DNA of 64,000 nucleotides from the NCBI GenBank assembly GCA_029260215.1, contig JAJDDQ010000051.1:1-64000 (forward strand), written 5' to 3'. The DNA is from Phycisphaerae bacterium. Its GTDB lineage: Bacteria; Planctomycetota; Phycisphaerae; UBA1845. The translations under genes were made by a program, and so were the position numbers. The notes beneath the pieces were generated by a model. It saw nothing but the letters and a program-made list of their open reading frames with translations. It was not told the DNA's origin and made no database searches. Shown here piece by piece: positions 46,416-56,865 of this stretch (position 1 is its first letter; every line of letters begins with the position of its first letter).

Positions 46416-46499
46416 TGCGGATGAGAGGACTCGAACCTCCACGACCTTACGGCCACTGGCACCTGAAGCCAGCGCGTCTGCCAATTCCGCCACATCCGC
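46416..46499 (-). tRNA. tRNA-Leu (CAG)
   Basis: 84 bases on the minus strand. The acceptor stem GCGGATG pairs with CATCCGC, with discriminator A. The D arm begins TGGCGGAATTGGCAGACGCG. The anticodon stem CTGGC/GCCAG encloses loop TTCAGGT with anticodon CAG (complement of 46463-46465). A long variable arm (class II, as in Leu) precedes the T arm GGTTCGAGTCC. The 3' CCA is not encoded. Confidence 0.93.
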
Positions 46500-52642: not shown

Positions 52643-53003
52643 AGCGAACGTAGTACCGGAAAGACCGGGGCGGGGTAAACAGCTCATGTCATTAGTTTTG
52701 CTCCCTCCGCCTAAACTCATACGAGCCATATCGTTGTGACCACCTGCTGAATTCTCCGAATATAATGGTTGACGGAGCCATGATCTTGGGGCAAGATGCC
52801 CGAGTACCCCCTAGATGTTGTAGTGACGACGATTGTCGCCAGCAGCCGATGTGTGGGTATGTGTCGCCATTTCGGCAACCCGGCGCTCGGCAAATGGATG
52901 CCTGTCGAGCGGGAGCATTTCGTTTCGGAGCCGGCGACGCGGACGGGATTGGTGCGAATTAGGTCACTTTGCTTTCGTCGCGATCGGCGGCGTGGAGTTC
53001 TTG
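52643..53003. other. Divergent intergenic region with possible nrdJ promoter
   Basis: 361 bases. TATAAT at 52761-52766 could be a -10 box for nrdJ, with no well-placed -35. I looked for a cobalamin riboswitch and an NrdR box and saw no convincing match. GGAG precedes the nrdJ start by 8 bases. Confidence 0.4.
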
Positions 53004-55637
53004 ATGTCTCAGGTTTCAACCCAACAGAATCGACCGGTCGCCAAAGACGAGCGGTTCTGCGATTTGGCGTTCACCGAGAACGCCCTGCGCGTTCTTGAAG
53101 CGCGATATCTCAAAAAAGACGAAACCGGTCGGTGTACCGAGTCTCCGCAGGATCTCTTTCGGCGCGTTGCTGGCGCGGTGGCCGATGCTGAGTTGCGGTA
53201 CGATCCGGACCCGACCATACGCAGCGAGTGGGAGCATCGCTTCTATCGCCTCATGGCGTCGCAGCGATTCATGCCCAACAGCCCGACGCTCATGAACGCC
53301 GGGCGAGAGATGGGCATGCTCAGCGCGTGTTTCGTGTTGCCCGTCCCGGACAGCATCAACGGGATATTTGATTCGATCAAATACACGGCCTTGATTCAAA
53401 AGGCCGGCGGCGGGACGGGCTTTGCCTTTGATGAACTTCGCCCCACGGGCGATTACATCCGCAGCTCCGGCGGGACGACCAGCGGGCCGATCACGTTCTG
53501 GCGCGCATTCAGCGAAGCCACCAACGCAATTCAGCAGGGTGCGTTTCGCCGTGGTGCGAATATGGGGATGATGAACATCGATCACCCCGATATCCTCAAA
53601 TTCCTGCACGCCAAGGAAGATCTGACACAGTTCACCAACTACAACATCTCGGTCAAAATCAGCGATGCGTGGATGGATGCGTTCGAGGCTGCCCCGAAAT
53701 CTCCCCAAGTCGTCACCAACCCGCGTAACGGCGATCAGTATCTGGTGCCCAAGACGATCAAAGTGTGGGAATACAACATCCGCTCGCTCACGCCGATCGC
53801 GGAGGCGGATGTCGATACGGTCGAGTACTACACGCGACAGGACATTTGGAACATCATCATCAAGAACGCCTGGCGCACCGGCGAGCCGGGTATCGCTTTC
53901 ATGGACCGCATCAACGATGCCAATCCCACGCCGCACGTCGGCAGGATGGAAGCGACCAACCCCTGCGGCGAGCAGCCACTGCTTCCGTTTGAGGCCTGCA
54001 ATCTGGGCAGCGTCAACCTGAAAATGTTCGTGACTGACCCCGGCACGCCCGAAGCCGCCGTCGACTGGGACGCCCTGCGCGAGACCATTCACGAAGCCAC
54101 GCGCTTCCTCGACGATGTCATCGATGCCAACAACTACCCGCTGCCCCAGATCGACGAAATCTGCAAACGGAATCGAAAAATCGGCTTGGGCATCATGGGT
54201 TTTGCGGACGCGCTGTTCCAACTCGGCGTTGGCTACAACACCGAGGAAGGCATCGCGTGGGGCCGGCGATTCATGCAGTTTGTGGACGACGAATCCCATG
54301 CGTGCAGCGAGGAACTCGCGAAAACGCGAGGCTCATTCCCAAACTGGACGGGAAGCACTTGGGACACCAAACACCACCGTCCCATGCGCAACGCCACCTG
54401 CACCACGGTGGCACCCACCGGGACGATCAGCATCCTGGCTGGCTGCTCGTGCGGCGTCGAACCGCTCTACAGCCTCGCCTTTTACCGAAACGTGTTACGG
54501 GGGCAGGACCACGGTAAAAAGCCGATGGTCGAAATCAACCCCATTTTCGACAAAGCCGCGCAAGCGCGTGGCCTGCTCAGCGGGGAACTGATGGATCAGA
54601 TTGCCAGGGAAGGCACCCTCGCTGGGATTTCCAATATTCCCGACGACATGCGCAAGGTCTTCGTTTGCGCTCACGATATAGCACCCGATTGGCACGTGCG
54701 CATGCAGGCCGCCTTCCAGGAACATTGTGACGCAGCCATCTCCAAGACCATTAACTTCCCCGAGTGCGCCACCATCGACGATGTCGAGACGATCTACCGC
54801 GAAGCGTACCGCCTGCGATGCAAGGGCGTCACGGTCTATCGCAACGGTTGCCGTCAGTTTCAACCGATGGCCCTCAAAGGCAGCGATGCGAAGGAGCAGC
54901 CAGCCGCTGAGAAAAAAGCGGTGGCGAGGCCTGTGCCCGAGCCGATGGACCTTCACGACATCGCAGCCGGTGTTCGCATTCGCCAGATCACGCCCTTCGG
55001 CAACATGCACGTTCAAATCACGGTAAACGTCGAAACCGAGCAGGACCTCGAAGTCTTCGCACAACTCGGCAAGGGCGGTGACCTGGCCACCAGCGACCTC
55101 GAAGCGATCTGCCGCATGATCAGCCTTTGGCTTCGCAGCGGCGGAAAACTGCACCACGTCATCCGTCAACTCAAGGGTATCGGTTCCAGCCTTCAAATTG
55201 CAACCAAAGAAGGGAAAATCCGCAGCCTGGGCGACGGCTTGGCGCGGGCGCTCGAGAAATACTCCCGTGCCAAATCGAAGTTCGGGTTGAAAAACCTTAT
55301 TATCGGGCGTTTCGATTCGGCGGAGCTTGATCGCGATTGGACGCAAATGCGCTTCGCCGGCAACAGCATGAATGGCAGCAGCACGAACGGCAGCAACGGA
55401 AACGGAATCGCGAAGACCAACGGCAAAAGCACCAGTGGCGAAGCCACCAATGGTGACGGCGCCAGCGGCGAAGGCGCCAACGAACACAACCGGGCGGCGA
55501 CGCGCGTCAGCGCGTGCCCGAGCGATTTCAGCGTCCTCGAAGAACAATACAAGGTACTTTGCCCAGATTGCCAAGGCCCCCTACGTTTCGCCGAGGGGTG
55601 CGTAAAGTGCGAAAGTTGCGGATATTCTCACTGTTAA
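53004..55637 (+). CDS. nrdJ: Adenosylcobalamin-dependent ribonucleotide reductase (class II)
   Basis: 877 residues; reduces ribonucleotides to deoxyribonucleotides with B12 as radical generator. Recognisable parts: ATP-cone-like N-terminus, FMPNSPTLMNAGREMGMLSA with the active-site cysteine region following (CFVLPV), KYTALIQKAGGGTGFAF, CNLGSVNL, VAPTGTISILAGCSCGVEPL, and an insert unique to the B12 class (YRLRCKGVTVYRNGCRQ). After about 790 there is a low-complexity Asn/Gly/Ser/Thr linker, then a C-terminal zinc ribbon (CPDCQ ... CVKCESCGYSHC) carrying cysteines that can reduce the active site. The ATG at 53004 has GGAG eight bases upstream. Monocistronic. Confidence 0.92.
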   Translation: MSQVSTQQNRPVAKDERFCDLAFTENALRVLEARYLKKDETGRCTESPQDLFRRVAGAVADAELRYDPDPTIRSEWEHRFYRLMASQRFMPNSPTLMNAGREMGMLSACFVLPVPDSINGIFDSIKYTALIQKAGGGTGFAFDELRPTGDYIRSSGGTTSGPITFWRAFSEATNAIQQGAFRRGANMGMMNIDHPDILKFLHAKEDLTQFTNYNISVKISDAWMDAFEAAPKSPQVVTNPRNGDQYLVPKTIKVWEYNIRSLTPIAEADVDTVEYYTRQDIWNIIIKNAWRTGEPGIAFMDRINDANPTPHVGRMEATNPCGEQPLLPFEACNLGSVNLKMFVTDPGTPEAAVDWDALRETIHEATRFLDDVIDANNYPLPQIDEICKRNRKIGLGIMGFADALFQLGVGYNTEEGIAWGRRFMQFVDDESHACSEELAKTRGSFPNWTGSTWDTKHHRPMRNATCTTVAPTGTISILAGCSCGVEPLYSLAFYRNVLRGQDHGKKPMVEINPIFDKAAQARGLLSGELMDQIAREGTLAGISNIPDDMRKVFVCAHDIAPDWHVRMQAAFQEHCDAAISKTINFPECATIDDVETIYREAYRLRCKGVTVYRNGCRQFQPMALKGSDAKEQPAAEKKAVARPVPEPMDLHDIAAGVRIRQITPFGNMHVQITVNVETEQDLEVFAQLGKGGDLATSDLEAICRMISLWLRSGGKLHHVIRQLKGIGSSLQIATKEGKIRSLGDGLARALEKYSRAKSKFGLKNLIIGRFDSAELDRDWTQMRFAGNSMNGSSTNGSNGNGIAKTNGKSTSGEATNGDGASGEGANEHNRAATRVSACPSDFSVLEEQYKVLCPDCQGPLRFAEGCVKCESCGYSHC

Positions 55638-55668: not shown

Positions 55669-55699
55669 TTGACGACTTTTCCGAATTTGCGAGTATAAT
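55669..55699 (+). promoter_or_regulatory. Promoter-like sequence before candidate RNA
   Basis: TTGACG at 55669-55674 and a perfect TATAAT at 55694-55699, separated by 19 bases (2 longer than ideal). It points to a transcript starting near 55706, which contains the hairpins described next. Confidence 0.5.
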
Positions 55700-55705
55700 C
55701 GCGGG

Positions 55706-55906
55706 TATTGATCTAAGAAATACCGCCTGCATGACCGATACAGAATTCTAGGTCGGTGCAGAACGAAGGTGTTCAATCGCGGCTGGAATTATTGGAGGGC
55801 TTTGCGGCGAACCTTTGGGGTCGCCAACGTGTATCAAATAACGGCTTCTTTCCCCTCCGGAAAGCACCGTCACTGTGCTATGCACGGGCGGTGCTTTCTT
55901 TTTTTG
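55706..55906 (+). ncRNA. Candidate structured non-coding RNA
   Basis: About 200 bases between nrdJ and the convergent cheY gene with at least four nested or consecutive stems. GGTATT/AATACC at 55704-55724. CTGC...ACCGA / TCGGT...GCAG at 55727-55761. An outer GGAGGG (55794-55799) / CCCTCC (55853-55858) enclosing GGCGA/TCGCC (55806-55825). It ends in a strong terminator. No coding frame with a start signal was found. It does not match 6S, SRP, tmRNA or RNase P features that I recognise. It could instead be the long 3' leader of nrdJ, but the promoter-like sequence argues for a separate RNA. Confidence 0.5.
55861..55906 (+). terminator. Rho-independent terminator
   Basis: AAAGCACCG (55861-55869) pairs with CGGTGCTTT (55889-55897), with an inner stem GTGC/GCAC, followed by a run of seven T (55899-55905). 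It is the strongest intrinsic terminator in the window. Confidence 0.85.
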
Positions 55907-56008: not shown

Positions 56009-56380
56009 TCAGGCCGTCGCTACCCGGCTTAGGGTTTGTTCGATTTTTTCAGCCATCGTTTCGGTGGAAAACGGCTTGACGACGTAGTTGTTCGCGCCGG
56101 CTTGAACCGCCTGGATGACGCGCGACTTCTCCGCCTCCGTCGTACACATGATGACCGGCGTGGTGACACCGTCTTTCCGGATGGTCTTGAGGAAGGTAAT
56201 GCCGTCCATGTTGGGCATGTTCCAGTCCAGGAGGATGAGGTCCGGTGAGGTTTCCTTGAGTTTTACGATGGCTTCCACGCCGTCTGCGGATTCGACGATA
56301 TCGGTGTGTCCCAGCGTCGACAGAATGTTCTTTTGAATGTTGCGTATCGTTCGCGAATCATCTACGAGGAGTATTTTCAT
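56009..56380 (-). CDS. cheY: CheY-like single-domain response regulator
   Basis: 123 residues, receiver domain only. Acidic pocket D7/D8 (LLVDDS), phospho-acceptor D52 (LILLDWNMP), Thr in the MCTTEAEK stretch and the conserved Lys in YVVKPFSTE near 105. Its start overlaps the cheX stop (ATGA, 4 bases). It is the likely substrate of the CheX phosphatase. No CheA or motility gene is adjacent, so the input and output are not visible. Confidence 0.92.
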   Translation of the reverse strand: MKILLVDDSRTIRNIQKNILSTLGHTDIVESADGVEAIVKLKETSPDLILLDWNMPNMDGITFLKTIRKDGVTTPVIMCTTEAEKSRVIQAVQAGANNYVVKPFSTETMAEKIEQTLSRVATA

Positions 56381-56865
56381 GATGTTGCTCCCGCCATCGC
56401 GGCTTTATTGACTTTCATGGACACGTGAACGTGAAAATCACCGACGGACGTGCTGCACGGAATGCAAACCCCCGGGTGTGCCTTGGAATTGGTGACTTCA
56501 TGATGTTCGCCGATGATGACGCTCGGCAGTGAAATGTTGACATCAAGACCGACGAATTCAGACTTTGCACCGCCTGCGATCATGTTGGCGATCTCGCCGA
56601 CCGCGTCGGCAAAATCCACGTGGTCCAGATCCATTTCAATGCCGGAGAACTTGGACGCAATCCGGACGGCTACCTCTTTTCCCATCGCCAACACAACCGC
56701 ACCGGACGCATCACCCGAAAAACCGATGATGGCCGAAACGTGCGGGCGAGATTGGTTGTCCGAATTCGGGACGAACGGCTTGCCGTACGTGACGTTCATA
56801 TCGAGCATCATTTTGAAGAGATTCTGAATTGACTTCACGAACGGATTGATGAATCGAACGTCCAC
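56377..56865 (-). CDS. cheX: CheX-like chemotaxis phosphatase
   Basis: 162 residues. CheX dephosphorylates CheY-phosphate. The catalytic ExxN motif is at E91-I-A-N94 in DAVGEIANMIAGGAKSEF. GYFGFS-like strands (AIIGFSGDASGAVVLAM) precede it. It forms a two-gene operon with cheY. The single ExxN (not two as in CheC) agrees with CheX. Confidence 0.87.
   Translation of the reverse strand: MDVRFINPFVKSIQNLFKMMLDMNVTYGKPFVPNSDNQSRPHVSAIIGFSGDASGAVVLAMGKEVAVRIASKFSGIEMDLDHVDFADAVGEIANMIAGGAKSEFVGLDVNISLPSVIIGEHHEVTNSKAHPGVCIPCSTSVGDFHVHVSMKVNKAAMAGATS

Follow-up and report, generated by a model that had tools for sequence, protein, structure and literature searches.

What occupies the gap between nrdJ and the convergent cheY-cheX operon in the genome of this Phycisphaerae bacterium? 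The first-pass annotation of the 64,000-nt stretch that we analysed (the window) had proposed an orphan structured RNA with four stems, its own promoter and a strong terminator, belonging to no class that was recognised. The flanking genes are as it had named them, since profile searches returned all three (Table 1; the family nearest to cheY in NCBIfam, CheY PRK10610, scored below cut-off). Between positions 55369 and 55490, nrdJ encodes a low-complexity linker of the NGS/ATNGDGAS type that precedes the C-terminal Cys-rich tail. A search of Rfam 15 at gathering and relaxed thresholds matched no family to the nrdJ-cheY gap (best score 12.9 bits, chance level), bearing out the claim that no catalogued class is involved, and the sole match at gathering in the whole window was a tRNA (46416–46499). 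The sequence comparisons described below give good support to a conserved RNA gene at this locus, and they also lead us to lean, with some reserve, towards a small RNA gene of ~160–200 nt from a Phycisphaerae-specific family, acting in trans as an Hfq-independent anti-Shine-Dalgarno (anti-SD) sRNA.

Table 1. Features of the nrdJ-cheY interval and its flanks, in window coordinates
Feature	Position	Strand	Remarks
nrdJ, vitamin B12-dependent ribonucleotide reductase	52833–55637	+	open frame from 52833, stop 55637; start codon probably ATG 53004; NCBIfam NF006417 979.5 bits and TIGR02504 667.6 bits, both over cut-off; Pfam agrees
P1, sigma70-like promoter	55672–55699	+	-35 ACGACT 55672–55677, 16-nt spacer, -10 TATAAT 55694–55699
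P2, sigma28 (FliA/WhiG)-like promoter	55714–55740	+	TAAG 55714–55717, N16, ACCGATA 55734–55740
Predicted sRNA transcript from P2	55747–55905	+	~159 nt; from promoter and terminator positions
GGAGGG, internal SD mimic	55794–55799	+	can pair with CCCUCC 55853–55858, masking it
Variable hairpin GGCGAACCUUUGGGGUCGCC within the GGAGGG/CCCUCC helix	55806–55825	+	predicted
GCUUCUUUCCCCUCCGG, invariant pyrimidine tract, proposed anti-SD seed	55844–55860	+	identical in order-level copies
Intrinsic terminator	55860–55905	+	stem GAAAGCACCG/CGGTGCTTTC (55860–55869/55889–55898), inner stem, T7 (55899–55905); covariation
cheY, convergent neighbour	56009–56380	-	Pfam PF00072
cheX, chemotaxis phosphatase	56377–56865	-	Pfam PF13690, 87.8 bits

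A DNA search with the 271-bp region found a match in 59 of 60 relatives, almost only at query positions 203–265 (55842–55904 of the window), indicating that the upstream stems are not kept by selection. The four 5′ stems by which a structured RNA had been defined drift freely among homologues, including the GGTATT/AATACC hairpin and the hairpin after it, and it is the 3′-terminal 60 nt that are conserved. Covariance model R1 was positive in 70 of 150 genomes of the class Phycisphaerae and in 9 of 199 genomes of a phylum-wide draw, in which good scores came only from the genome of the window and three others of the same class; matches outside the class (26–29 bits) look like chance terminators or coding sequence. 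We also scanned TTYTYTCCCCTCCGGWARRC across 84,980 named GTDB genomes, which yielded at least 80 loci. A stable hairpin follows in 65 of the 65 Planctomycetota loci among the matches listed, nearly always with a T tract, and these loci carry the names Phycisphaerae, Phycisphaerales, Sedimentisphaerales or only Planctomycetota/Planctomycetales. The 15 loci from other phyla among the matches listed (Hungatella, Peribacillus, Chitinophaga and others) are about as many as expected by chance, and none has a hairpin with a T tract. Judged by the matches listed, the predicted RNA family is confined to Phycisphaerae across GTDB. The term "orphan" does not hold, as the family is class-wide and a genome usually carries 1–3 copies (Phycisphaerales bacterium UBA1845, which probably typifies the order of the window, has nrdJ-linked and other copies, L183 and L194); a mobile repeat was rejected on this copy number and the differing terminator loops.

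The part that does not change is the pyrimidine tract. Among the matches listed, GCTTCTTTCCCCTCCGG was unchanged in all 57 distinct order-level copies, followed by a stem, and GCUUCUUUCCCCUCCGG was also identical in 35 of 35 aligned sequences. The tract stays although the adjoining order-level stems differ (e.g. GGAGAG.., GGAAAACACC.. and GGGAAACACC..), and other orders of the class keep the consensus UYUYUCCCCUCCGG at this position next to stems that are wholly different (AAAACATC, AAGACACC, TAGGCGAGC); terminators in other families of the class are likewise unrelated in sequence (TTTTCTCCCCTCCGGAAAACATC, TTTTCTCCCCTCCGGAAGACACC, CTTCTCTCCCCTCCGGTAGGCGAGC). The strong terminator of the first-pass annotation was confirmed as a stem followed by T7, and the compensatory changes that it had asked for among homologues are present in this stem: across 35 sequences, 12 of 16 pairs changed on both sides with 88.8% of cells paired, a level that 0 of 500 shuffles attained. 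A covarying stem beside an unchanged tract places the former under a pairing constraint and the latter under a sequence constraint. An alternative hairpin, CUUUCC-CCUCC-GGAAAG, was rejected, as no compensatory change preserves it where the stem changes. The locus has an invariant CCUCC-type stretch complementary to the SD sequence, a feature expected of trans-acting anti-SD sRNAs. Its signature, an invariant single-stranded pyrimidine tract by a terminator, is typical of a base-pairing sRNA and not of a riboswitch-like fold, and the invariant, mostly single-stranded CCUCC tract in drifting surroundings points to SD regions as the likely aim of the pairing.

Upstream of the tract, the RNA itself carries an SD mimic. 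GGAGG occurs at -80 to -20 (before CCCC) in 49 of 91 order-type copies, compared with 2 of 91 in the control interval (-200 to -140), and was absent in the other orders examined. The GGAGGG:CCCUCC helix appears in predicted minimum-energy folds, with a mean pairing probability of 0.67 for GGAGG:CCUCC, and most folded order-level homologues place a hairpin of other sequence inside this helix, which abuts the terminator. This pairing never covaries, both of its sides being invariant and thus beyond a test by covariation; in the modelled folds GGAGGG can mask CCCUCC in the order to which the window belongs. A small protein was discarded as an explanation, given that homologues differ by indels, that no start codon is conserved after GGAGG and that the GCCGATA-core distance varies.

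These same elements could mean that the RNA titrates an RNA-binding protein (e.g. CsrA via GGA motifs, or a pyrimidine-tract binder) as its sponge or decoy instead of regulating by base-pairing. Such a role would accommodate the invariance of the tract, whose sequence identity exceeds what pairing needs, and the GGA motifs at GGAGGG and CCGGAAAG; we nevertheless consider it unlikely, as each RNA offers one unpaired GGA where CsrB-type sponges have many repeats, and as copies from outside the order keep the C/U tract but lack GGAGG.

For an anti-SD sRNA, the next question is how the RNA would be transcribed. The promoter scan of the nrdJ-cheY region found none, and inspection of homologues points to two promoter-like elements. 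Of the TTGACG...TATAAT pair proposed earlier, TATAAT (55694–55699) stands as the -10 box of P1, but TTGACG (55669–55674) would lie 19 nt from it. The usual sigma70 spacer is 16–18 nt, and TTGACG is probably not the -35 box; in most order-level homologues GACTTT is found a constant 20 nt before TAnAAT, equivalent to a -35 with a 16-nt spacer. P2, which is absent from the first reading, lies ~20–25 nt beyond P1. The pattern AAG-N16-[GA][CT]CGA[TA] occurs in 26 of 91 order-type copies and in 21 of 46 copies from other orders, against 0–7 at other spacings. By comparison, then, the AAAG/TAAG-N16-[GA]CCGATA unit is rigid in its spacing, although the sequence of the 16-nt spacer is itself not conserved and the distance from GCCGATA to the core ranges from ~22 to 170 nt. 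In families f14 and f97 the unit lies 48–67 nt before CCCC (48–50 nt in f14), such that the RNA there would be only ~60–80 nt long, whereas f92 and f90 copies have, by eye, sigma70-like boxes in place of P2. The transcript start near 55706 that had been suggested fits P1, from which an RNA of ~200 nt is predicted; if P2 is active, the start would instead lie near 55747 and the GGTATT/AATACC hairpin would belong to the promoter and not to the transcript. At the level of sequence, these features support a discrete non-coding RNA gene equipped with a promoter and a Rho-independent terminator of its own.

The boxes of P2 resemble those of flagellar sigma factors, for which the consensus is TAAA at -35 and GCCGATAA at -10 (PMC8325347), or TAAAGTTT-n11-GCCGATAA for E. 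coli sigma28 (PMC2859248). AAAG and GCCGATA boxes corresponding to TAAA and GCCGATAA are present in many copies, but the spacing is not canonical, being consistently 2 nt longer (AAAG-N16 versus AAAG-N14). Most flagellin promoters in these genomes have another spacing as well (N14–15): flagellin genes of the order have TAAAG-N15-GACGAAA, with N16 in two genomes (overall TAAAG-N15/16-GMCGAWA), and those of f14 have TAAAG-N14-TCCGATAA. FliA/WhiG sigma factors scored above cut-off in 26 of 27 genomes tested, often as several paralogues. In the one exception (G002, 98% complete), neither a flagellin nor a FliA above cut-off was found, and its sRNA (L028) retains an AAAG-N16-GCCGATAG unit, which calls FliA into question as the cognate sigma factor. 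"FliA/WhiG-type" accordingly denotes a resemblance, from which we infer the identity of the sigma factor. A genome-wide P2 regulon was not discernible, for the pattern was no commoner than its reversed control, though several matches were flagellin promoters.

Three further observations concern these sigma factors and flagellins. Four f90 genomes (G333, G303, G283 and G288) encode a FliA/WhiG-family sigma factor well above cut-off and no flagellin that we could find, and this factor possibly has a non-flagellar, WhiG-like role. Several f14 and f97 genomes (e.g. G295, G290 and G350) encode 2–3 FliA/WhiG paralogues above cut-off each. Lastly, the flagellin ribosome-binding site at L307–L314 and L373–L383 sits within a small conserved inverted repeat, AATCA(A/C/G)GGAGGATT, upstream of the gene, and this repeat resembles a CsrA-type GGA-in-loop site.

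The genomic neighbourhood bears on whether the element is independent of nrdJ. Besides the window itself, 25 of the 29 best homologous loci have nrdJ as the gene immediately 5′ of the RNA, in the same orientation, and the link is also seen outside the order, in families f93 and f97. cheY-cheX was dismissed as a functional partner, since among the 29 other best-match loci it adjoins the RNA in just 3, all from close relatives. Families f92, f90 and f14 have neighbours other than nrdJ: in f92 the preceding gene encodes an acyltransferase, and in f90 an adjacent gene encodes a cytidylate kinase. Nor does nrdJ adjoin the second copy in the genome of the window (G000:C25:198799–198864, L132; core GAGCTTTTCCCCTCCGGAAGCACCGGG), which has an EF-G paralogue (675 aa) on its 5′ side at a distance of 225 nt; five family homologues share this neighbour.

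It could be argued from its usual place in the order, immediately after nrdJ and in the same orientation, that the element is only the nrdJ terminator or 3′ UTR, with the tract binding a termination, stability or processing protein and no independent sRNA being made. This is quite improbable in view of the promoter-like elements between nrdJ and the element, the other neighbours in f92, f90 and f14 and at the second copy, the f14 P2 unit 48–50 nt from CCCC that would give a minimal 60–80-nt RNA, and the 17-nt invariant single-stranded tract, for which an ordinary terminator has no need. The EF-G linkage of the second copy and its family homologues, along with the anti-SD/SD complementarity within one molecule, would suit a ribosome-directed RNA in which GGAGGG pairs with the 16S anti-SD (or CCUCC imitates that element) and tunes global initiation or hibernation instead of specific mRNAs; with GGAGG present in no more than 49 of 91 order-type copies and absent from the other orders examined, and with no other link to the ribosome, there is little to recommend this. 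Least credible is an orphan multi-stem RNA whose stems carry a riboswitch-like or 6S-like function, since, although the 204-nt stretch 55703–55906 folds better than shuffles (-71.9 kcal/mol, z -2.6; z -3.0 for the shorter 55747–55905), the lack of conservation of the upstream stems largely refutes it, Rfam offers no match and the convergent downstream gene leaves nothing to regulate in cis. A leader or riboswitch was set aside likewise, no same-strand gene lying downstream within the window. 6S RNA (RF00013) is similar in being a stand-alone RNA of ~160–200 nt beside a metabolic gene, but the region has no RF00013 match and the genuine 6S RNA of this genome is found elsewhere (G000:C81:19952–20132, L071; 48.5 bits, just over the Rfam cut-off).

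In the anti-SD sRNA model that we prefer, the RNA would be transcribed from its own promoter(s) in the nrdJ 3′ flank and end at the intrinsic terminator, and the tract CUUCUUUCCCCUCC just 5′ of this terminator would pair with purine-rich SD regions (GGAGG[GG]) of target mRNAs, thereby blocking ribosome binding. Hfq (PF17209) was found in none of 20 genomes tested, with controls positive, and hence the pairing would be Hfq-independent and not that of an Hfq-dependent sRNA. In the order of the window, the internal GGAGGG would fold onto CCCUCC, probably closing the seed until a target or factor opens it, and expression is probably divided between P1, as the housekeeping promoter, and P2, served by a sigma factor of FliA/WhiG type. 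A search of 35 genomes for GGAGGGGAAA-N0-9-ATG, a pattern that seeds of 6–8 bp would escape, revealed no recurrent orthologous target among the loci examined; most matches fell on the strand opposite the sRNA genes themselves, and the rest were isolated genes.

The closest working parallels, by analogy, are NfeR1/alpha-r14 and CJnc230. In NfeR1/alpha-r14 of alpha-rhizobia, identical CCUCCUCCC anti-SD motifs in otherwise divergent stems silence targets by blocking the ribosome-binding site (PMC10746234). As here, an ultraconserved, unpaired C/U-rich anti-SD seed is set among divergent stems in an intergenic trans-sRNA; unlike here, there are three hairpin-loop seeds in place of one linear seed abutting the terminator, the phylum is another one and the NfeR1 targets have been tested; we claim no sequence homology. 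CJnc230 (FlmE) of Campylobacter jejuni holds its anti-SD within a single-stranded stretch between two stem-loops (PMC11187230), and both it and CJnc170 (FlmR) share with our RNA a single-stranded anti-SD by stem-loops and a conserved position 3′ of a gene; CJnc170 is similar too in depending on the flagellar sigma factor (PMC11187230). The seed there is CCUU, and CJnc230 differs in its RpoN dependence and its location downstream of flgE (PMC11187230). The Phycisphaerae RNA, compared with both, lies 3′ of nrdJ and has a longer-spaced sigma28-like promoter. UhpU of E. coli also arises in the 3′ flank of a metabolic gene from its own sigma28 promoter, but the sigma28-dependent UhpU, MotR, FliX and FlgO are Hfq-associated (PMC10578931), in contrast to the Phycisphaerae tested, which lack Hfq, and sigma28 dependence is in our case deduced from the promoter boxes.

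The open-access literature searched contained no description of such an RNA in Planctomycetota, nor any characterised base-pairing sRNA from this phylum. A bolder proposal, which we advance tentatively and hold to be possible rather than probable, is that of a class-wide Hfq-independent sRNA family with a near-invariant anti-SD tract, a terminator stem swapped wholesale, a FliA/WhiG-type promoter of non-canonical spacing and, in one order, self-masking by an SD mimic, which would regulate translation globally and so tie many mRNAs to a lifestyle sigma factor. The 17-nt tract unchanged across the order, together with the 14-nt class consensus, provides an entry point to RNA regulation in Planctomycetota, and the family supplies a covariance model usable for annotation and suggests a testable connection of translation control to a sigma28-like factor.
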